From Candidatus Jordarchaeia archaeon (GTDB lineage: Archaea > Asgardarchaeota > Jordiarchaeia > Jordiarchaeales > Jordiarchaeaceae): a stretch of 33,977 bases of DNA. The notes under the pieces were generated by a model. It was not told the DNA's origin. It worked only from the letters and a program-made list of their open reading frames with translations, and searched no databases. The stretch covers positions 1 to 33,977 of the forward strand of contig JAHAWU010000027.1 in assembly GCA_018383815.1 (NCBI GenBank). Direction: 5' to 3'. This document shows positions 7,487 to 24,875 of this stretch, one piece after another. The position numbers and the translations under genes were made by a program. Within the stretch, counting starts at the first letter, position 1, and each line of letters begins with the position of its first letter.

Positions 7487-8650
7487 CTAGAGATCGTTTT
7501 GGCTCAGAATGTTTAGGAAGTGGTCTAGGCCGTTGCCCATTTTTTGAAGCTCATTACTTCTGTACAGGGGTTCATCTAACAGGTTTAGCACATCTTTTTC
7601 CAGGTTTTCTGCGATTTTGCCGTAGCCATATTTCTGAACCATTAGAGCGTTTTTCCTCTTTTCCATGTGCCCCTTAGGGCAGAATAGTAGTAGGGGCACT
7701 CCGTACATTATAGCTTCCGAAACGGTTCCGAATCCGCTTCGCGCAATAACTAGGTTTGAAGCGTTAATATAGTTTTGAATGTCTGGAAGGAAACCGTTGA
7801 ATTTCAAGTTTTCTTGTTCCAATTCTTTGAAAATTCCTGGTGGGGTGACTACATAGAAGTGTATGTCTGGGTGTTCCAGTGCAATCTTTTTGTAAATGTA
7901 GAAATCATGATTTTCCATTAAAAAATTTTTTTGGTAGGGTCTTCCCATCACTAGAACCAATGGTTCGTTTTTGCCTAACCCTAACTCTTCCCTCACCTTT
8001 GCTTTGGTTCTGGTTACATCTCTTACTATGGGGGGGTAGACTTTTTCGCAGTCCACAATTTCTGGCCTAATATCCATTGCGAAATTCTCGGAAAGGCCGA
8101 AAAATGAACGTACACGCTCCCCCCAAACTATGGGCCTCTCAACTAGATAAGAGTAAAAATTCATCCTGAACTCTCTCCAACCGTATTTAAAGGGTTGGTA
8201 GTGCGTGATGTTAATGGTCCTCATTCCCGGTATGCACGTAAGGTGGGGGTTGTAATCGTTGACTAGGACACGGTACTTCAAGCCCATAATTAGGGTTCTC
8301 AGAAAATCTATGGGGAAATATAGGCTGCCAAAAATTAATCTCAAAACCGTGGGGAAAACATTGAGGTCCCCATTATTTCTATAAATATATTTTATTCCAT
8401 GAAGCTTATTATTGCATCTCATACTTGTCTGGGAGAGAAATTTTATTCTTTCCTCATCGCTGAAAACAAGGTACTCTATATTATTCATTTTTAGCCTTGA
8501 GGCTATGGCGCTAACTCTCTGTGCATGGCCGTATCCTTCTGTGGTGGGGCACAGAACCACTTTGAAACTTGAATAACGATTTTTGCAAATTGGTTTTTCC
8601 AACAAAGGTTTATTTAACTCAGCGGTTACCAATCCTTTTTCTTCCTTCAA
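7487..8650 (-). CDS. GT-B glycosyltransferase (MurG/GT28-like)
   Basis: 387 aa from TTG 8650. The N-terminal domain begins VVLCPTTEGYGHAQR, the Gly-rich acceptor-side loop of MurG-like enzymes. The C-terminal domain has VLVMGRPYQKN and then ASNLVIARSGFGTVSEAI with GVPLLLF, the nucleotide-sugar-binding signature of GT28/GT1 enzymes. It likely transfers a sugar from a nucleotide donor to a lipid or surface acceptor, but no substrate can be named. The first about 25 residues are not conserved-looking, and a downstream TTG start (codon 7, behind GAAGGA) is possible. It is a lone gene with its own regulatory region. Confidence 0.78.
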   Translation of the reverse strand: MKEEKGLVTAELNKPLLEKPICKNRYSSFKVVLCPTTEGYGHAQRVSAIASRLKMNNIEYLVFSDEERIKFLSQTSMRCNNKLHGIKYIYRNNGDLNVFPTVLRLIFGSLYFPIDFLRTLIMGLKYRVLVNDYNPHLTCIPGMRTINITHYQPFKYGWREFRMNFYSYLVERPIVWGERVRSFFGLSENFAMDIRPEIVDCEKVYPPIVRDVTRTKAKVREELGLGKNEPLVLVMGRPYQKNFLMENHDFYIYKKIALEHPDIHFYVVTPPGIFKELEQENLKFNGFLPDIQNYINASNLVIARSGFGTVSEAIMYGVPLLLFCPKGHMEKRKNALMVQKYGYGKIAENLEKDVLNLLDEPLYRSNELQKMGNGLDHFLNILSQNDL

Positions 8651-9187
8651 AACTTTCTAGCTGAGTTCATAGTCCTCTCCTTGCTAAATTATCTGGATTC
8701 TGAAGGATTTAGCGTTCAACTATTTCTTGAATAGTTTAGTTCATAAAAATTGGTTATCTCCTAAAGCTTTTGGTACGATAACCGACTTTCCCATATTTTA
8801 AACAGCACTCCAGATAAATGGTTATTGTTATACTATTAGGTTTTTGTTTTTCCCTTTTTAAAAGGATTGTTAGCGAGATAAGTCCCTCCCACTCATTTAG
8901 TCCAGTCGAGGGGAGCGTGTCAACCAAAGCTTATTTTATTTCCCGTATGGGGAAGGCAGTGTGTTCAAATGGCACTCTCCTTTGTGGGGACACTTTTTTG
9001 TGACTGAGTTTTTGGGGGAAAATTTCCACCAATTTTTAACGCCATTATGTAAAACAAGGAGGGTACCGAAGGGTTGCGTCAGCAGATCAAGAGAGGTTCA
9101 AACCAATTTGCTGCACATTTCAAGATTTGCCGCATTAAAAAGCTTATTAAATATTAGGCTCCTGTAATTGGATTAAGAATCAGGGGT
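8651..9187. promoter_or_regulatory. Intergenic region with two dyads and a TATA-like box for the glycosyltransferase
   Basis: No convincing gene is present; two short open frames here lack SD sequences and family resemblance. Dyad 1 is AACTATT/AATAGTT (8718-8724, 8730-8736). Dyad 2 is GGTTATC/GATAACC (8752-8758, 8777-8783) and encloses AAAGCTTT. Between them, a minus-strand TATA-like TTTTTATGAA (about 8741-8750) would start transcription near 8720, inside dyad 1. The part from 8784 to 9130 holds nothing I can name. A plus-strand TATA-like TTATTAAATA near 9143-9152 probably serves the gene at 9194. Confidence 0.4.
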
Positions 9188-9193
9188 ATGCGA

Positions 9194-11278
9194 ATGAGGC
9201 AAAAGACAAGAGAAGCCATAATAATTTGCTCTCTCTTATTGCTCCCCTTGGCAGGATTAATTATGGGTGGTGCGCTTAATTCAAGCGGTAACTCTCAGTT
9301 TCTATTATGCTTTTCGACCAGTGAATTGGCTTGCGGGTCTAGTCTTTCAGTAAAGGATACCCACATGATTTCCTTCAATTCTGACACGGCGCATGATTTG
9401 ACTATTTATCGTCCCCCAGCCTGGTCTATATCCTCAATAAACATCACCCTCTCAAACATTACCACACCAACCTATAATATGGTGGTCGAGGACTACGCAG
9501 AAATGGGTATCCCCCTATTTGTACCAGGTTCCTCAATAAATGACTCGATATATCTTGTGTGTTTGATGAGCTTTAATGTAACAGATGTACAGCGGGTTTA
9601 CTTCAACAAGTTGGGGGCGCTTCTTATAAACACGGAATTCAATACTAGTGCCTATGTTGATGTCGCAATTCTTAACGCCACATACAACTATGATTTTGGT
9701 ATTCTCCTTCCAAACGAAACACTCAAAGTAATGCACAATATATCACTCGCGAATTCCGGCGGACCACTGGAGTTTAAGACCTTAAATCTCACATCCAATC
9801 CAGACGAGTACCTCTATCTCGACACTGCTATAAACCAAACAGACTATAACACCTACTTCATCGCGATAGCCCAAAATGTAACCGCCATCACAGACCCCAT
9901 AATCTACTGGTTCTACGCTACAGACTCACATAATGGAGATCAGGGCGACGCATGGTGGGCAGCCTTCTGGTACGGTGAAGAAACTCCCTTTGCTTTTAGC
10001 AATAGGGATTTCACCTACAATGATACTTTCGACTTCTGCCTAAAGCTTTACTTGAATCCAAGCGACCCCTCTCAAGGTAATCCCTGGCCGAGTGATTTAG
10101 GTCTGAGAATTAACGGCGTAAACGTTAATAGCACTGGTCCAGGGAGCGGATGGTGGAGCACTACTGAAAACTTGTCACTAAATCCTTTGTTCTTTGATTT
10201 TTCTTCAAATTGGTCAACTTGGTCAGGAGGCACGTGTCCTGTAAGTTTTACAGCAGAAGTCTGGTTCACCTACCAGGAAGCCCCAAATATCCTTCTGGCT
10301 TCTTTGACACAAGTCTTCCTAACAATGACTTATTTTGAAGACCAAAGAGAGTTTAAAAATTACCTATTCCTAGTTGCTTTAGGCTCCATCGTTGTTGCTG
10401 GCGCGGCTGGCTACAAATTGGATAAGAGAAGAAAGATTCCCAGAAATGCTTTGCAAAGTCTTGAACACATAATAGTTGATCACAATAATACTGGCGTTCT
10501 TCTGTGGGCCTTTGACTTCGTTTCTATGGAGCAGGATATAGCTCTAATCTCGGGATTTATGTCGGCAATCAAATCATTTTTAGAGGAAATGAAAGTGGGA
10601 GGATTGAAAAGGCTGGGAACCGAGTTTGGAACCTTCATTAGGGAAGAAAGCGAGCTATTGACTGCAACCTGCATCACCAGCGACATAGGAATCGACGAAG
10701 AACTCTGGATTAGAGGCAAACTGCATAAGTTCCTAACCCAGATAGAGCAGCAGCACCGAAGGCAGCTTGAAGAGTGGAAGGGCGATGTAGGCCAGTTTAA
10801 AGAGACGTTTCCAATGGTTCTAGGCTCAGTAATAGATCTAGATAGGGTGCATAAACTTCACAAGCAGAAATTCTCCAGACTAAGCAAGAAAAAACAAAAG
10901 CTGCAGAGAGAAGTCAACAAGTATGGAGCCAAGCTTGAAGAATTAAAATCCAAATATGATTCTGGTGAACTAGACTATGAGGAATACACCGCTAAAAGGC
11001 TCAAAACCGAGTACAAGTATGACAAAGTCCAAAAAGACTACATATACGCCAGCCTATTTCTCTCAAAAGTCCCCCTCGAAACTGTAACCTCACAAAAACA
11101 GTTAGAAAACCTACAGGAAATACAGAAACGTTTCGTGGAAATAAGAATGCAGATTGAAGAGCTCCGAAGAAAACAGAGCGAAGGAACATTCAACGAAAAT
11201 GACAGAAAGCGAAAAGAAAAACTGCAAAAAGAACTAATAAAACTAGTGGAGAAACTAGACAGATACCAAAAGGGATGA
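9194..11278 (+). CDS. Membrane-anchored sequon-rich protein with longin-like sensor and coiled-coil tail
   Basis: About 694 aa. An N-terminal hydrophobic segment (about residues 8-30) is a signal or anchor. The next about 360 residues contain 16 N-x-S/T sequons, so this is probably a glycosylated ectodomain. A second membrane helix lies near residue 390-410 (LFLVALGSIVVAGAAGY), followed by KLDKRRK, which places the rest in the cytoplasm. Residues about 425-545 (GVLLWAFDFV, ALISGFMSAIKSF, LEEWKGDVGQF) resemble the longin/roadblock-like sensor domain common in archaeal proteins. The tail after about residue 550 is a charged coiled coil. ATG 9194 is preferred because AGGGGT (9182-9187) sits 6 bases upstream; ATG 9188 abuts it. 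I do not recognise the ectodomain. Confidence 0.7.
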   Translation: MRQKTREAIIICSLLLLPLAGLIMGGALNSSGNSQFLLCFSTSELACGSSLSVKDTHMISFNSDTAHDLTIYRPPAWSISSINITLSNITTPTYNMVVEDYAEMGIPLFVPGSSINDSIYLVCLMSFNVTDVQRVYFNKLGALLINTEFNTSAYVDVAILNATYNYDFGILLPNETLKVMHNISLANSGGPLEFKTLNLTSNPDEYLYLDTAINQTDYNTYFIAIAQNVTAITDPIIYWFYATDSHNGDQGDAWWAAFWYGEETPFAFSNRDFTYNDTFDFCLKLYLNPSDPSQGNPWPSDLGLRINGVNVNSTGPGSGWWSTTENLSLNPLFFDFSSNWSTWSGGTCPVSFTAEVWFTYQEAPNILLASLTQVFLTMTYFEDQREFKNYLFLVALGSIVVAGAAGYKLDKRRKIPRNALQSLEHIIVDHNNTGVLLWAFDFVSMEQDIALISGFMSAIKSFLEEMKVGGLKRLGTEFGTFIREESELLTATCITSDIGIDEELWIRGKLHKFLTQIEQQHRRQLEEWKGDVGQFKETFPMVLGSVIDLDRVHKLHKQKFSRLSKKKQKLQREVNKYGAKLEELKSKYDSGELDYEEYTAKRLKTEYKYDKVQKDYIYASLFLSKVPLETVTSQKQLENLQEIQKRFVEIRMQIEELRRKQSEGTFNENDRKRKEKLQKELIKLVEKLDRYQKG

Positions 11279-15180: not shown

Positions 15181-15338
15181 GCTGAGAAGAAAAAGCCAAA
15201 ATCAATTTTGTCCCAAAGCCGAACTAGAATCCGATGCTCCTCCCCTAGGTTGTTTTATGCCTTTTTGATTTTCGAAAAGGTCTTATACTGAAGAATGCAT
15301 AAATAAAGGAAAATGATTGTTAAAAAGGAGAGGTTTTG

Positions 15339-16421
15339 ATGAGTAGTGAGGATGTTTATCGGGAGTTGCAGAAGCACCTTGACAGGATGCCTGTGGGTTT
15401 TCCAGCCACAAAGTCCGGTGTGGAACTAAAAATATTGAAGTACCTTTTTACACCCGAGGAGGCGAGGATAGCGACAAAACTGAGCTGGGAATTTGAGCCT
15501 CTTGAAACCATTTATAGCCGCTTTGACCAGTCACAAATCTCAACGGAAGAGTTGAAAAACAAATTGGACAACATGGCCAAGAAGGGCATTGTTCACTACA
15601 AAATTGTGAAAGGTGAGAGGTACTACGCAAATCCACCACTTGTCGTAGGCATGTACGAGTTTCAGGTTAACAGACTCACCAAAGAGTTCCAAGAAGACAT
15701 TGACAAATACATTTCGGAAGCATTTGCCCTAGAATTTTTGCGCACCGGAATAAACCAGCTTAGAGTCATACCTATAGAGGAAAGTATAACCAGCGAGGGC
15801 TTCGTGGCAACCTACGACGACCTGAGGGAAATTATTAAAAACGAGGAGGGACCCTTCTGCGTGTCTGAATGCATATGCCGTAAAGCCGCAGAACTGAAGG
15901 GAAACCCCTGCAGTAAGACCTCCCTGCGTGAAACCTGCATATCCCTTGGAGACACAGCCCAACTATACATAGATAGCGGATGGGGCCGCCCCGTAACTAA
16001 GGAAGAACTTCTCGAGATACTAAGAAAAAATGAGCAAGAAGGTCTAATTCTAGAACCAAACAACTCCCAGAGACCAGAATACATATGCAGTTGCTGCACG
16101 TGTTGCTGCGGAATCCTATCCAGACTAAAAGTCTTTCCCCGCCCCACGGAAATTATCAGCTCAAACTACTTCGCCCAAATAGACCCCGATTTATGCACCG
16201 GCTGCGAAACATGCCTTCAGCGATGCCAAATGGAAGCACTAAAAGTAGTGGACGAAATTTGCACAGTAGACACAGGCAGATGCATAGGCTGCGGAAACTG
16301 CGTACCCACATGTCCCACCAAAGCAATCACCCTGCGGAAAAAAGAAAAGCAATGGGTGCCGCCCAAAACCCTAGAGGATCTCTTCAGGAAAATAAAGAGT
16401 GTAAAAGGCCAAACGACCTAA
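15339..16421 (+). CDS. Multi-Fe-S protein with C-terminal dicluster ferredoxin domain
   Basis: 360 aa. The N-terminal about 100 residues look like a winged-helix/partner-binding region (LKILKYLFTPEEARIA, KLDNMAKKGIVHYK). The middle carries FCVSECICRKAAEL, then two further cysteines, and YICSCCTCCCGIL. The C-terminal domain has two [4Fe-4S] motifs, CTGCETCLQRCQ and CIGCGNCVPTCP, each of the CxxCxxCxxxC type. It is probably a cytoplasmic electron carrier or redox sensor with three or more clusters. ATG 15339 is chosen because AAGGAGAGG at 15325-15333 precedes it; an adjacent TTG at 15336 is too close. The gene at 27764 has the same layout without the winged-helix part. Confidence 0.82.
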   Translation: MSSEDVYRELQKHLDRMPVGFPATKSGVELKILKYLFTPEEARIATKLSWEFEPLETIYSRFDQSQISTEELKNKLDNMAKKGIVHYKIVKGERYYANPPLVVGMYEFQVNRLTKEFQEDIDKYISEAFALEFLRTGINQLRVIPIEESITSEGFVATYDDLREIIKNEEGPFCVSECICRKAAELKGNPCSKTSLRETCISLGDTAQLYIDSGWGRPVTKEELLEILRKNEQEGLILEPNNSQRPEYICSCCTCCCGILSRLKVFPRPTEIISSNYFAQIDPDLCTGCETCLQRCQMEALKVVDEICTVDTGRCIGCGNCVPTCPTKAITLRKKEKQWVPPKTLEDLFRKIKSVKGQTT

Positions 16422-17703: not shown

Positions 17704-18177
17704 CTATTTTGGTTCCATTTTCACTGTGAGTTGGCATACTGTTTCATTGTTGTCCACATTGACGCCCATAACTTGAACAATATTTGTGGCCTCAATGGCA
17801 CCCATCAGCATAACAGATGTGGCGCACAGGGGGCAGGCTTTGTATCCTATAGATTTCCCATATTTGCACATTTCCAGCCAGGGGCATTGAACAAGTTTCA
17901 TACTAAGATTGTTTCCCGAGTAGCTCAATTGGAACTCTTTGCCGAATACGAAATTTTTGCCCACAATTTCTAAATCCTTCATGAATTCTTCTATAGTTTT
18001 AGGCGGAGCCATACCTAAAAATTGTTGGGCTAGATTTTCAAGCATGGGACCTAATATTTTTGATGATTGGCGTCCGAGTAGTGTGGGATTTATTCCCATC
18101 TTGTCCGCGGCACTAAGTATGGTGCCAAAAACGAATCCATAAAAAAGGTTTACTGTATCCGACACGAATGGCTTCAC
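17704..18177 (-). CDS. Small Cys-rich protein, V4R/ATC-hydrolase-like pattern, function unknown
   Basis: 157 aa from GTG 18177; a GTG at 18165 preceded by AAGGTG is an alternative. The N-terminal helical part (FYGFVFGTILSAADKMG) precedes a Cys-rich C-terminal domain: VQCPWLEMCKYG, KACPLCATS and ETVCQLTV. This order of CP-W, C, C-x2-C and a last C before a final strand recalls V4R small-molecule-binding domains. It also recalls the ATC-hydrolase-like protein at 22349 (WCPHQ, FDC, DTCRF). I cannot assign a family with confidence. Ligand sensing or Fe-S/thiol chemistry are possibilities. It is a lone gene. Confidence 0.5.
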   Translation of the reverse strand: MKPFVSDTVNLFYGFVFGTILSAADKMGINPTLLGRQSSKILGPMLENLAQQFLGMAPPKTIEEFMKDLEIVGKNFVFGKEFQLSYSGNNLSMKLVQCPWLEMCKYGKSIGYKACPLCATSVMLMGAIEATNIVQVMGVNVDNNETVCQLTVKMEPK

Positions 18178-18987: not shown

Positions 18988-20892
18988 CTAGATGCCAAGC
19001 TTCTTCCTTTTCGCCTCTATATGGGTTAATATGGCCTCTGCTGCCTTTACTGGGTCTTTTTCCAAGTTGAGTTGGGCGCCTGTGATCTGTTTTAAGTCCT
19101 GTGTTAATAGCTTGACTAGGTTCGGCCCTCCGGTTACTGTGGGCACTGGGTTGACGTAGGTGAATAGTCCTAGAGCTAAAGCGAATATTGCATCGATGGT
19201 TGCTTTTTGCTCCATGTATTCTGGGGCCACTGCTGCAACCGGTAGGTCTGGTATGGGTACTCCTCCCAGCGCATTTGAAATCGCAGCAAGTAGGTCGGCC
19301 AGACGCCCAGTATCGGTGCAGGTACCGTAGCTCAGAACTGGGGGAATTTTCAACTTTTCGCAAATGCTCTTCAGTCCCGGCCCCGCAAACTTTTTAGCGT
19401 CTAAAGTGCAGAGACCAGCTACCTGCATAGCGGCGTTCCCACACCCCATAGATAGAACCAGAACATCACGTTTAATCAGCTCCTTAGCCACATTTACACT
19501 GTGCACGTCCTGACCATAATCCCTGAGAGTGGTGCATGAAACAAGTCCCGCGACCCCTCTTAAGGTTCCATCCTTTATTGCACCTAGAAGTGGGTCAAGG
19601 GTTCCTCCCAGGGCTTCCAGAATGCTTTCAGTGGAAAATCCCACCAGCACTTCTTTCATGGGTAGATTGGTTACTGGCTCTATGGTGGCTCTGCGTTCCT
19701 TGAAGTTATCTATGGCCATTTGTAGTAGCTGGGCGGCCTGTTGCTCAGCTTTCTCAGGAACATAGTTTACTCGTTCCCTTACCCCTTCAAAGGCCACCAG
19801 TTCACTTACGGGCACCAGTTTAAACTTGTACTTTTGCGCGTAAATGGGGTCGATTTGCATGGAGCAGTTCATATCGCAGGCGAAGAGGTCTACGCACCCA
19901 CTAGCCAGAACTGCCTCCTGAGAAATCCAGTTTCCAGTAAAACCGTAGAAGGCGTGGTCCATGTTCCATCTCTGAATCATTTCTTGACCCGTTTCAATGC
20001 TTGCAATTACTCGCAGGCCTTTGGCACCCACGGCTTTAGCCTTCTCCTGCCACTCCGGTTTCCGAGCCAGTTGAACCATAGCAAAGCCGAGGAAGGGTTC
20101 GTGACCATTTGGCAAGACGTTGACGTAGTCTGGGTCCAAAACGCCTAAATCGACACGCATAGTGTGCGGCCTTGGAATGCCGTAAAGGATGTCTTGGCAG
20201 TACTCGTTTACTATTTGGCTCTGATAAGCCATAGCTAAACCTAGACGCATAGCCTTGAAGGCCAAACTGGCGTAGTAACCGTCAACATTTGTGAGACAGG
20301 AACTTGTAGCAAGCATCATTTCACCATAAATTCCACCCGGAAACATCCCCAGCTTCTTCCAAACCTCTTTACGCTCCGGGGGAGCTAAGGCTTCAACTAT
20401 TTTGCTTGGCTCATAGTACTTTCTGTTGAAGTCTTCCTCCACAAAGTCGCACAAGCGAATGGCTACTTCCTCCACGGTTCCAGAGGTGTCTATTCCCAGT
20501 CTCTTAGAGAAGGTCTTCAACTTTTCAGGCTCTTTAATCTCAAACGGGGTCTTGCCCATTGCTGTGGCTCTAAGAGTCTTTACTGTTTGGTCTGTGTGGT
20601 AATGATAGGTTGAGGCTCCCAAAACATTTCTGAGTAGCATCATACGCATAGCCATGCCGTCAGCAGTTATGCCGCAAACTCCCCTCTTGTCCTTCTCTGC
20701 ATCTGCTCTGCATGGTCCGTTTGAGCATAGGTCGCATCGAACTCCCGCCTGGCAGAAGGGGCATCTCCTGTCGGGGTCTCCGCCCATTCCCTGGGCCTCG
20801 TACCGATCCCAAATGTTGGTCATGTTGTCTCTTTTTATTTTTTCATACATTTTCCGGACTGACTCATGATAAGATATTCTATCTTCCTTCAT
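18988..20892 (-). CDS. cooS: CooS-type carbon monoxide dehydrogenase homologue with altered C-cluster site
   Basis: 634 aa from ATG 20892, which has GGAGGG 6 bases upstream; TTG 20910 is a weaker alternative. D-cluster cysteines are C44-x2-C47, and B-cluster cysteines are C53, C56, C61 and C73 (CDLCSNGPCR, VCG). C-cluster positions relative to Carboxydothermus CODH-II are H264 (NGHEP), C343, C453 (VSCTTL), C484 (MGCGNA), C525 (GTCTDT) and K563 (EQKATI). The Cys295 equivalent is E300 (ASIETGQEM instead of ICCTGNEV). Of the proton-relay His at 93, 96, 99 and 102, only the second (H99 here) remains. This matches deviant CooS proteins such as CooS-V, which lacks a canonical cysteine and CO activity. 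No CooC, CooF or acetyl-CoA synthase gene is adjacent. Confidence 0.92.
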   Translation of the reverse strand: MKEDRISYHESVRKMYEKIKRDNMTNIWDRYEAQGMGGDPDRRCPFCQAGVRCDLCSNGPCRADAEKDKRGVCGITADGMAMRMMLLRNVLGASTYHYHTDQTVKTLRATAMGKTPFEIKEPEKLKTFSKRLGIDTSGTVEEVAIRLCDFVEEDFNRKYYEPSKIVEALAPPERKEVWKKLGMFPGGIYGEMMLATSSCLTNVDGYYASLAFKAMRLGLAMAYQSQIVNEYCQDILYGIPRPHTMRVDLGVLDPDYVNVLPNGHEPFLGFAMVQLARKPEWQEKAKAVGAKGLRVIASIETGQEMIQRWNMDHAFYGFTGNWISQEAVLASGCVDLFACDMNCSMQIDPIYAQKYKFKLVPVSELVAFEGVRERVNYVPEKAEQQAAQLLQMAIDNFKERRATIEPVTNLPMKEVLVGFSTESILEALGGTLDPLLGAIKDGTLRGVAGLVSCTTLRDYGQDVHSVNVAKELIKRDVLVLSMGCGNAAMQVAGLCTLDAKKFAGPGLKSICEKLKIPPVLSYGTCTDTGRLADLLAAISNALGGVPIPDLPVAAVAPEYMEQKATIDAIFALALGLFTYVNPVPTVTGGPNLVKLLTQDLKQITGAQLNLEKDPVKAAEAILTHIEAKRKKLGI

Positions 20893-22348: not shown

Positions 22349-23041
22349 TTATTTTTGGGCCTTTTTTGCTTTCCACCTTTTTAGTGCTCGTTCTTCGAGT
22401 ATTTTTGAGTATTTTTCCCATTGGTCTTCTTCTTTGCCTTCCTTTTTTCTCCATAGTCTGAAGCGGCATGTGTCTGCTCCTGCGGGTATTATCCACTTGA
22501 ATTCTACATCAAAGTTGATTTCCCCCTTTTCTTTGAAGTATCTTCTTATGCCTTCCACTAAATAGCGTTGCACCCGGCAGTCAAAAGGCTTGTAAACGTC
22601 TTGGTGGGGGCACCATAAAATATCGAATATGCACTCATCTTCGTTTAGGATTTCGGGTTTCTCAATAGAGGTCCAGAGAACGGTGTTAATCCATGTTCCC
22701 ACGAAACTGGTTTTCTCTATATCAGTTGTGCCCTCGGGGAATTTTGCGTTTTCAAAACTCTGCCTTGCAACATCGTATCCCACTTTTCTCAGAGCTTCAC
22801 TAACCACCCGCTGACCTTCTGGGCCAAAGTTTTCCTCCACATCCTCCATGATTTGCAGAACACTCATACCCATCATAGTTCCCCAGATGAGCAGGGTGGC
22901 GGGGTCAAAATCAGGTCTACTCATAACTTCCTTGCGGAATCTTTCCACCGCTTTTTTGTAGGGTTCCTCAAACTTGGTTCCCTTCCAATTCTTTTCCTTA
23001 CGTTCACCCTTAACACATATTCCATCAGTAATCACGGGCAA
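22349..23041 (-). CDS. L-2-amino-thiazoline-4-carboxylic acid hydrolase-like protein
   Basis: 230 aa from TTG 23041; the GTG two codons later is an alternative. A helical N-terminal region (about residues 1-130) is followed by a Cys-bearing alpha/beta domain: FDILWCPHQDVYKPFDC, a helix (YLVEGIRRYFKEKG), FKWIIPAGADTCRFRLW, then a basic tail. The pattern CP, C and a last C before a final strand matches the ATC-hydrolase-like family (PF14196), most members of which have no proven activity. The final about 35 residues are charged and probably helical. It is a lone minus-strand gene with no metabolic neighbour that fixes its substrate. Confidence 0.6.
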   Translation of the reverse strand: MPVITDGICVKGERKEKNWKGTKFEEPYKKAVERFRKEVMSRPDFDPATLLIWGTMMGMSVLQIMEDVEENFGPEGQRVVSEALRKVGYDVARQSFENAKFPEGTTDIEKTSFVGTWINTVLWTSIEKPEILNEDECIFDILWCPHQDVYKPFDCRVQRYLVEGIRRYFKEKGEINFDVEFKWIIPAGADTCRFRLWRKKEGKEEDQWEKYSKILEERALKRWKAKKAQK

Positions 23042-23220: not shown

Positions 23221-23715
23221 TTAGACTTGAACTATGTGGTTTTGGTAGTTCTCAACGAAGTATTTTTTGCCTTTCTGGATGATTTTGTGGCCTTCCTCTT
23301 CTAGTAGTTTTTTGTGTGCTTCCACTCCGCCAGGATATTTTTCATTTAGAAGCCCGTCCGCTTTCAATGTGCGCCAGTATGGGTTGGGGTTCTCTTTTCC
23401 TTCTTTTATGGTTTCTTGGGCGGCGTTGGCGGCGGTCATAATGAATATTCCTGTGGTTAGGGTGCAGCATGCTTCAACATTGTATTTTTTGGCGAGTTTC
23501 ATGCAGATTTCTCTAATGGTTATGAGTTTGCCTTTGGGCACCGTTTTCATAACTTCTTCTACTTCGCGGGGGTTGGCAAGCACACATCTGTCGCCCACCT
23601 TCGCCCCCATTTTTTGTAGGGCTCTGAAACAGGGTTTTCGACCATCCAGCTTTATTATCTTTGGAAATGCCTTCTTATCAGACATTTTCTCCTGCCACGA
23701 TTTTCTCCTACTCAT
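23221..23715 (-). CDS. MGMT/alkyltransferase-like (ATL) protein without the catalytic Cys
   Basis: 164 aa. Residues about 50-150 follow the DNA-binding domain of O6-alkylguanine-DNA alkyltransferases: a helix-turn-helix-like segment (TVPKGKLITIREICMKLA), then NPYWRTLKADGLLN and YPGGVEAHKKLLEEEGH. In active MGMT the active site is PCHRV. Here PYWR stands at that place, so the acceptor Cys is replaced, as in ATL proteins that recognise but do not repair alkylated bases. An ATG at codon 11 has a better SD (CAGGAG) than the first ATG. A TATA-like TCATATATTG about 30-35 bases before ATG 23715 suggests a very short leader. Confidence 0.72.
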   Translation of the reverse strand: MSRRKSWQEKMSDKKAFPKIIKLDGRKPCFRALQKMGAKVGDRCVLANPREVEEVMKTVPKGKLITIREICMKLAKKYNVEACCTLTTGIFIMTAANAAQETIKEGKENPNPYWRTLKADGLLNEKYPGGVEAHKKLLEEEGHKIIQKGKKYFVENYQNHIVQV

Positions 23716-24163: not shown

Positions 24164-24562
24164 ATGCCCGAAAGGAGTAGAGATTGGGAGAGGCAAGCGG
24201 ATAGGGATTTGAATGTTGCAGAAGAAATGTTAAGAGCGGGCTTTTTTGAGTGGTCTTGTTTTGTAGCTCAGCAAGCAGCAGAAAAAGCGGTTAAGGCAGT
24301 TCTCCAGAAAATGAATGCTACTGCTTGGGGTCATTCGGTACATGATTTTCTGAAGATTCTTGCAAAAAAGTTATTGGTGGGCGAGGAAATTTTAGATTGC
24401 GCCAAGACTTTGGATAAATATTATATTCCCACAAGGTATCCGAATAGTTTCGAGTCGGGAAGCCCCTACGAATATTTTACTAGGAGGGACGCGGAAAATG
24501 CCATCATTTGTTGTAGAAGAATCATTGAATTCTGTAAAGGTATTCTGGCTGGATCAGGATAA
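24164..24562 (+). CDS. HEPN-domain protein (toxin-like partner of MNT)
   Basis: 132 aa, all helical. It has the PF05168 pattern: DWERQADRDLNVAEEML, FEWSCFVAQQAAEKAVKAVL, GHSVHDFLKIL, the YYIPTRYPNSF loop and a last helix (DAENAIICCRRIIEFCKGIL). HEPN-MNT pairs act as toxin-antitoxin modules in several prokaryotes: the HEPN RNase is inactivated by AMPylation from the MNT partner. I do not see a clear R-x4-6-H RNase motif, so toxicity is uncertain. ATG 24164 has AGGAAGG 6 bases upstream. The 3' end overlaps the MNT gene. Confidence 0.85.
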   Translation: MPERSRDWERQADRDLNVAEEMLRAGFFEWSCFVAQQAAEKAVKAVLQKMNATAWGHSVHDFLKILAKKLLVGEEILDCAKTLDKYYIPTRYPNSFESGSPYEYFTRRDAENAIICCRRIIEFCKGILAGSG

Positions 24563-24875
24563 CTTAATTAAAACTATTCAGAGAATAGCCGTGAAAGTAG
24601 GGACGGAAAACGAGAATGTAGTAAAAATAGTACTTTTTGGTTCCTTAGCGGAGGGAAGGGCGGTGCCAGGAAGCGATGCGGACATACTGATAATTCTTAG
24701 GGAGGACTACAGAAAATTTATGGACAGGATTGAAGAATGGGTGGAAAAATTTCAAATAGACTTCCCAGTTGAAGTTTTCCCCTACACACTAGAGGAATTG
24801 GAGGTTCCCCTTGTTAGAGAAGCGTTAAGTAAAGGAATCACTCTATACGAAAAATGGACACAATCTAGAAGCTGA
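24498..24875 (+). CDS. MNT-type minimal nucleotidyltransferase (antitoxin-like)
   Basis: 125 aa. The nucleotidyltransferase signature FGSLAEGRAVPGSDADI supplies the Gly-Ser and the two metal-binding Asp; the next acidic strand is DFPVEVFPYTLEEL. MNT proteins pair with HEPN proteins and can AMPylate them. Starting at ATG 24498 the gene overlaps the HEPN gene by 65 bases, longer than usual. GTG 24591 would avoid the overlap but leaves only about 14 residues before the GS motif. Co-translation with HEPN is likely in either case. Confidence 0.85.
   Translation: MPSFVVEESLNSVKVFWLDQDNLIKTIQRIAVKVGTENENVVKIVLFGSLAEGRAVPGSDADILIILREDYRKFMDRIEEWVEKFQIDFPVEVFPYTLEELEVPLVREALSKGITLYEKWTQSRS

Follow-up and report, generated by a model that had tools for sequence, protein, structure and literature searches.

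The window analyzed here, the whole 33,977-bp stretch of contig JAHAWU010000027.1 from a Candidatus Jordarchaeia archaeon, codes for a protein of the Prismane/CODH family (Pfam), with an ATG start at 20892 and a stop codon at 18988-18990 on the minus strand (Table 1). A cupin gene lies downstream, followed by a gene for a 157-aa protein that is probably part of the same gene run, since a similar gene follows the cupin in a sister species (locus L012, 12722-13183). Elsewhere in the window, a HEPN domain gene (132 aa) overlaps a nucleotidyltransferase gene (125 aa) at 24164-24875 on the plus strand, a typical HEPN/MNT toxin-antitoxin-like pair. A 164-aa protein (23221-23715, minus strand) has a weak match to the O6-methylguanine methyltransferase DNA-binding domain (E = 1e-5, below the Pfam cutoff) and no obvious PCHR active-site motif, and is perhaps alkyltransferase-like; a 230-aa protein (22349-23041, minus strand) weakly resembles L-2-amino-thiazoline-4-carboxylate hydrolase, and a 696-aa protein (9188-11278, plus strand) matches no Pfam family above the cutoff.

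Table 1. Genes and codons of the cooS-V locus, in window positions
Feature	Position	Strand	Remarks
cooS-V (clade D, structural group D-1), 634 aa	18988..20892	-	TIGR01702 name: CODH catalytic subunit
C44-x2-C47 codons, type III D-cluster pair	20752..20763	-	Subunit-bridging [2Fe-2S] in CooS-V
B-cluster motif C53-x2-C56-x4-C61-x11-C73	20674..20736	-	[4Fe-4S]
His264 codon	20101..20103	-	= CooS-V His259, cluster ligand
Glu300 codon	19993..19995	-	= CooS-V Glu295, CODH-II Cys295 position; hybrid-cluster ligand in CooS-V
Cys343 codon	19864..19866	-	= CooS-V Cys338, cluster ligand; Asn342 (= Asn337) precedes
Cys453 codon	19534..19536	-	= CooS-V Cys449, cluster ligand
Cys484 codon	19441..19443	-	= CooS-V Cys480, cluster ligand
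Cys525 codon	19318..19320	-	= CooS-V Cys521, persulfide cysteine
Glu561-Gln-Lys563 codons	19204..19212	-	Glu561 = CooS-V Glu556 / HCP Glu494, hybrid-cluster ligand; Lys563 = retained acid-base Lys
Single-domain cupin, 117 aa	18525..18878	-	112 bp downstream of cooS-V
157-aa protein of unknown family	17704..18177	-	Similar gene after the cupin in the sister species

The 634-aa protein scores 737.9 bits against the NCBIfam model for the anaerobic CODH catalytic subunit (TIGR01702; cutoff, 478) and falls far below the cutoff of the hybrid-cluster protein (HCP) family model TIGR01703 (31.2 versus 360.8 bits). Among solved structures its best match, over the full length, is CooS-V (7b7q; 709.6 bits), and the next CODH follows at 397.6 bits. 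A sequence-only reading of this DNA had proposed a structure prediction and a tree of CooS clades, and both place the protein with CooS-V. The AlphaFold model (pLDDT, 80; pTM, 0.85) retrieves two CooS-V entries at the top of a Foldseek search of the PDB (TM, 0.92; 52% identity over 633 columns), with CODHs ranking below them at a TM of about 0.87-0.88. In a tree of 75 sequences, comprising Glu-type and Cys-type rows, one fully supported branch divides the two types and 7b7q falls among the Glu-type; all 42 Glu-type rows keep the Glu at position 300.

The active-site residues H264, E300 (in SIETGQE), N342, C343, C453, C484, C525, E561, and K563 can be read directly from the sequence, and agree with the sequence-only reading in that the His, four of the five C-cluster cysteines, and the catalytic Lys are retained and Glu occupies the Cys295 position of CODH-II. 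When aligned with Cys-type CODHs of other Asgard genomes, E300 lies opposite the second Cys of GICCT(A/S)NE; the canonical five-Cys-plus-His ligand set of the [Ni-4Fe-4S] cluster C is thus incomplete. All 86 aligned homologues have Glu at position 300, which excludes a sequencing error or a chance substitution, and E561, H264, and all of the cysteines are likewise invariant, except for one row that is gapped at C44/C47. The proton-relay positions are Y96, H99, Q102, and K105, such that the His is missing at three of the four, as had also been noticed.

Group D-1, as defined by Inoue et al., has Glu for the first C-cluster Cys, a type III D-cluster, and Tyr for the acid-base His, with the Lys retained and a further Glu two residues ahead of that Lys, as in HCP; its catalytic-site residues equal those of HCP (PMC6344411). 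All of these features are present in the window protein (E300, C44/C47, Y96, K563, E561, H264, C343, C453, C484, and C525), and it is E561 together with the C44/C47 pair, neither of which the sequence-only reading remarked on, that identifies the group. The protein is the same as 7b7q at 18 of 19 diagnostic positions, including the D-cluster pair, the exception being position 102 (Gln versus Glu), which is variable within the family. A new kind of deviant CODH is ruled out, as all diagnostic features equal those of group D-1, and by its sequence the window protein is almost certainly a CooS-V orthologue and a typical representative of structural group D-1 in CODH clade D. The hybrid-type cluster proposed earlier for this protein is very probable on the same grounds, as a property of a CooS-V orthologue rather than of a new analogue. 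Both group D-1 (2019) and the CooS-V structure (2022) are already published, and the hybrid-cluster inference is not new.

The CooS-V of Carboxydothermus hydrogenoformans differs from CODHs mainly by the Cys295-to-Glu exchange; it crystallized with an Fe/S/O hybrid cluster, [4Fe-3S-nO], without Ni, and has activity with neither CO nor CO2 but reduces hydroxylamine slowly (PMC9311411). The corresponding C295E variant of CODH-II lost Ni and CO activity and gained hydroxylamine reductase activity (PMC6344411). It is nonetheless conceivable that the window protein still works as a CO dehydrogenase, with Glu doing the job of the absent Cys and electrons from CO passing to the host; its TIGR01702 score is well above the cutoff, the acid-base Lys and four of the five C-cluster cysteines are in place, and genetic data from Methanosarcina acetivorans, as cited in PMC6344411, have been taken to suggest a role for a D-1 protein in CO oxidation. 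We regard this as most improbable, given that CooS-V has the same residues and neither Ni nor CO/CO2 activity, that the CODH-II variant is Ni-deficient and inactive, that three of the four proton-relay His are lost, and that searches with Pfam and NCBIfam reveal no CooC, CooF, or acetyl-CoA synthase (ACS) genes among the neighboring window genes. Moreover, the host has its own CdhA-CdhB-CdhC in a CODH/ACS cluster on a separate contig (C65), where CdhA is its only other Prismane-family protein. The earlier suspicion that this is not a CO dehydrogenase is accordingly very probably right, on the strength of a CooS-V orthologue with the same exchange, and we are highly confident that the gene codes for a Ni-free hybrid-cluster CooS-V that would not interconvert CO and CO2.

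The nearest relatives are in Candidatus Jordarchaeia RPF2 (97%) and Candidatus Freyarchaeota SQRJ_82 (90%). Scanning named genomes yields 374 encoding stretches, and the best 80 of these are distributed among archaea and several bacterial phyla, with about 75-83% identity outside the host genus. Identity this high between domains suggests that cooS-V genes of this subclade have spread horizontally. Among Asgard genomes 48 of 228 are matched, a few of them through canonical CODHs at 35-36%, and the gene is patchy; one 99%-complete genome of the host's own genus has no CooS-V match. In an unbiased draw of Chloroflexota, CooS-V is present in just 1 of 201 genomes, which is the starting genome and too few for an estimate. 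No HCP was found in the host genome.

The sequence-only reading described the gene as an orphan, and this holds for CooC, CooF, and ACS, but not for its other neighbors: the cupin is conserved beside CooS-V in several phyla, and FrdX is directly upstream in the sister species. Homologues of the cupin (E = 1e-36 to 1e-53) adjoin CooS-V in Freyarchaeota, Lokiarchaeota, a Dehalococcoidia genome, and unclassified bacteria, and in Methanofastidiosum and Actinomycetota this place is taken by more distantly related cupins. A cupin-centered search of 228 Asgard genomes shows that the six top-scoring cupins, from at least three genera, are all beside CooS-V, and the cupin is about 13-fold enriched in the 1.5 kb around CooS-V relative to more distant flanking DNA. 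A second recurrent neighbor is a ferredoxin-type protein of 260-320 aa that combines two [4Fe-4S] motifs with a C-terminal domain in which a MEVPCC-like motif is conserved. Of 80 CooS-V loci, 20 have a ferredoxin of this FrdX family no more than 1.5 kb away, a density about 20-fold that of the farther flanks, and in an Asgard sample FrdX or a cupin is nearby in 15 of 27 CooS-V loci. The sister species has a single run of Zn-ribbon (79 aa), FrdX ferredoxin, CooS-V, cupin, and 154-aa protein genes, of which the window species retains the CooS-V, cupin, and 157-aa protein portion. Full-length FrdX was not found in the window species, in which there are ferredoxin-domain matches only (5e-11). The FrdX structure prediction is of low confidence (pTM, 0.46) and has no significant fold match. 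We note that the window also codes, at 15336-16421 on the plus strand and thus opposite to CooS-V, for a 361-aa protein that has 4Fe-4S motifs at its C terminus and is rich in additional cysteines, and whose likeness to FrdX is confined to the ferredoxin domain.

This linkage is not universal. Of 16 Desulfobacterota CooS-V genes, none has FrdX or a cupin within 1.5 kb, and two have a Zn-ribbon/HD gene in that range with FrdX slightly farther away. The canonical CODHs of this phylum also lack both within 1.5 kb (0 of 30), a control that does not discriminate because CooS-V there is likewise at 0 of 16. The association of FrdX and cupin with CooS-V comes chiefly from the loci of archaea, WOR-3, and some Chloroflexota. 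Other frequent neighbors of CooS-V are of redox-repair types, including NADH:rubredoxin reductase, ferredoxin-thioredoxin-reductase-like, and Rrf2 proteins. Six Lokiarchaeota loci (L086, at 8440-9786, and L060, L076, L083, L084, and L087) have a divergent NADH:rubredoxin-reductase-like flavoprotein gene 150-215 bp upstream of CooS-V, and an Rrf2-family regulator (IscR/NsrR type) is near CooS-V on the same strand mainly in WOR-3 bacteria (L030, at 9500-9916, and L032, L040, L044, and L047).

The same kinds of genes accompany HCP. A profile built from the CooS-V-linked ferredoxin matches, at E values of 3e-92 to 2e-87, the gene directly downstream of a true HCP in three genomes of Desulfobacterota or Syntrophorhabdus, and by position and domain content this gene matches frdX of the hcp-frdX operon (PMC1274295). 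Most CooS-V-linked FrdX proteins belong to a subfamily apart from those linked to HCP, with additional independent cases; they are not monophyletic in the tree, which has five label changes. In several HCP runs a cupin follows FrdX, and in Methanolobus and Methanosarcina a related cupin is located approximately 75-115 bp after HCP, although the HCP-linked cupins are only distantly related to the window cupin (E = 1e-8 to 1e-9). Several HCP runs also include a Zn-ribbon/HD protein, the N-terminal domain of which is similar to the small Zn-ribbon protein whose gene precedes frdX at CooS-V loci. In Desulfobacterota the Zn-ribbon/HD gene is beside FrdX in L211 (4299-5027) and 23 other FrdX loci, in several of which it lies between hcp and frdX; its N-terminal domain alone is coded upstream of FrdX in the CooS-V loci L012, L018, L019, and L054.

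Genes of these families are implicated in the response to NO. In C. difficile, hcp and frdX are strongly induced by NO, and knockdown of either confers NO sensitivity (PMC12915319); in D. desulfuricans, a cupin gene and hcp have consecutive locus tags and both are NO induced (PMC5701242). A 2026 study of CODH genomic context describes clade D as without a clear pattern, and FrdX and cupins are absent from its text (PMC13056359). We found no report in the open-access literature of a neighborhood common to CooS-V and HCP.

From the residues, the family, and the neighbors we infer the type of cluster that this protein carries, its substrate, and the role of the cupin, and the best overall explanation, to which we assign a probability of roughly 0.6, is that this D-1 hybrid-cluster protein is a low-potential stress reductase. 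The protein would be a homodimer of the CODH fold in which Glu300 occupies the place of the Cys that binds the Ni-adjacent Fe in canonical CODHs, and a Ni-free [4Fe-3S-nO] hybrid cluster would assemble because Glu300 stands in for that Cys; the cluster would be held by His264, Glu300, Cys343, Cys453, Cys484, Cys525, and Glu561, and wired through the B cluster ([4Fe-4S]) and the subunit-bridging D cluster ([2Fe-2S]). A ferredoxin with two [4Fe-4S] clusters is predicted to feed electrons in through the D and then the B clusters. The reduced cluster would then open, so that NO, hydroxylamine, or a related N-oxide or oxygen stressor may bind at the open iron sites and be reduced, after which the ferredoxin would reset the cluster. 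In the relatives this ferredoxin is presumably the FrdX encoded adjacently, and in the window species another ferredoxin would have to take its place; the neighboring cupin probably acts as an accessory protein within the cooS-V unit.

A reductive role accords with the properties of CooS-V, in which the [4Fe-3S] cluster has an open site when reduced, hydroxylamine oxidizes it in two steps, and in the oxidized state a persulfide on the Cys525 equivalent shuts the channel; access to the cluster is thus redox gated and open only upon reduction, which suggests a reductase (PMC9311411). A decidedly unlikely alternative is that the protein senses redox state or a gas, or acts as a regulator, instead of being a catalyst; its cluster would morph with redox state, its turnover of known substrates would be negligible, and the cupin or nearby regulators would relay the signal. 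Hydroxylamine turnover by CooS-V is indeed very poor (kcat/KM, 20 per M per s; rate, 0.13 per second; PMC9311411) and its cluster rearrangement is reversible, Rrf2-type regulators adjoin CooS-V in WOR-3 bacteria, and the genomic-context study of 2026 proposes that clades C and D may function in regulation or redox sensing (PMC13056359). However, the entire active site and electron path are very strongly conserved, which, along with the recurrent ferredoxin linkage, better fits an electron-consuming enzyme, and access that opens only when the cluster is reduced is what is expected of a reductase.

For the stress reductase reading, defense is suggested because relatives of the neighboring genes also adjoin NO-detoxifying HCPs. 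A low-potential reductase acting on a substrate unconnected with nitrosative or oxidative stress, such as one of carbon, sulfur, or nitrogen metabolism, and with FrdX and the cupin as generic partners, deserves some weight but is rather unlikely. CooS-V has cluster potentials about 300 mV lower than HCP, a gap taken by the authors of the CooS-V study to indicate a different physiological role, and NO reduction by the Carboxydothermus enzyme is not above background (PMC9311411). In addition, of the best 40 FrdX loci in Desulfobacterota, 12 are near HCP, 1 is near CooS-V, and 27 are near neither, which rules out FrdX being exclusive to HCP or CooS-V. Set against this, FrdX, a related cupin, and the Zn-ribbon domain all recur with both HCP and CooS-V, and the other frequent neighbors of CooS-V are of redox-repair types. 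We see about an even chance that CooS-V is a convergent stand-in for HCP in anaerobe stress defense, reducing small nitrogen or oxygen species with ferredoxin electrons. We propose more tentatively that the Zn-ribbon, FrdX, CooS-V, and cupin genes may form a second, convergent nitrosative or redox stress module that mirrors hcp-frdX(-cupin), with CooS-V as its catalytic core; if so, Asgard archaea and other anaerobes without HCP, this host included, would gain an HCP-type activity on a CODH scaffold.

The cooS-V gene illustrates how a CODH scaffold becomes a hybrid-cluster enzyme by a small number of substitutions. Genes of this kind still carry CODH annotations, and CO metabolism may be wrongly credited to Asgard and other archaea. 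The FrdX and cupin neighbors shared with HCP provide a concrete and testable lead on the physiological role of CooS-V.

Among known systems, the window protein is most like CooS-V (7b7q and 7b9a), with which it shares the fold over the full length, the Glu at Cys295, and the second cluster Glu two residues before the Lys, as well as the type III D-cluster Cys pair, the B cluster, the Tyr at His93, and all other ligands (as in 7b7q). It differs in having Gln instead of Glu at position 102 and in belonging to a distinct and tightly conserved subclade (about 75-97% identity among members) that occurs in several bacterial phyla as well as in Asgard and other archaea, and in which a cupin or FrdX is frequently a neighbor. 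With canonical Ni,Fe-CODHs (clades E/F, e.g., CODH-II) it has in common the fold (TM, 0.88), the D/B scaffold, the His and four Cys, and Lys563, whereas Glu replaces Cys295, Glu561 replaces Ser/Thr, proton-relay His are lost, and the gene has no maturation genes nearby. HCP, a hydroxylamine/NO reductase, has FrdX, a related cupin, and the Zn-ribbon domain as common neighbors, but its dimer and N-terminal organization differ from those of the CooS-V type, and Carboxydothermus CooS-V has lower potentials and no detected NO reduction. A genomic parallel is found in the hcp-frdX (HcpR regulon) operons of Desulfobacterota and Clostridia, in which a hybrid-cluster enzyme is likewise encoded with a ferredoxin of this family, a Zn-ribbon domain protein, and in some cases a cupin; there, however, the enzyme is HCP, the Zn-ribbon is fused to an HD domain, and the FrdX linked to CooS-V is mostly of a separate subfamily.
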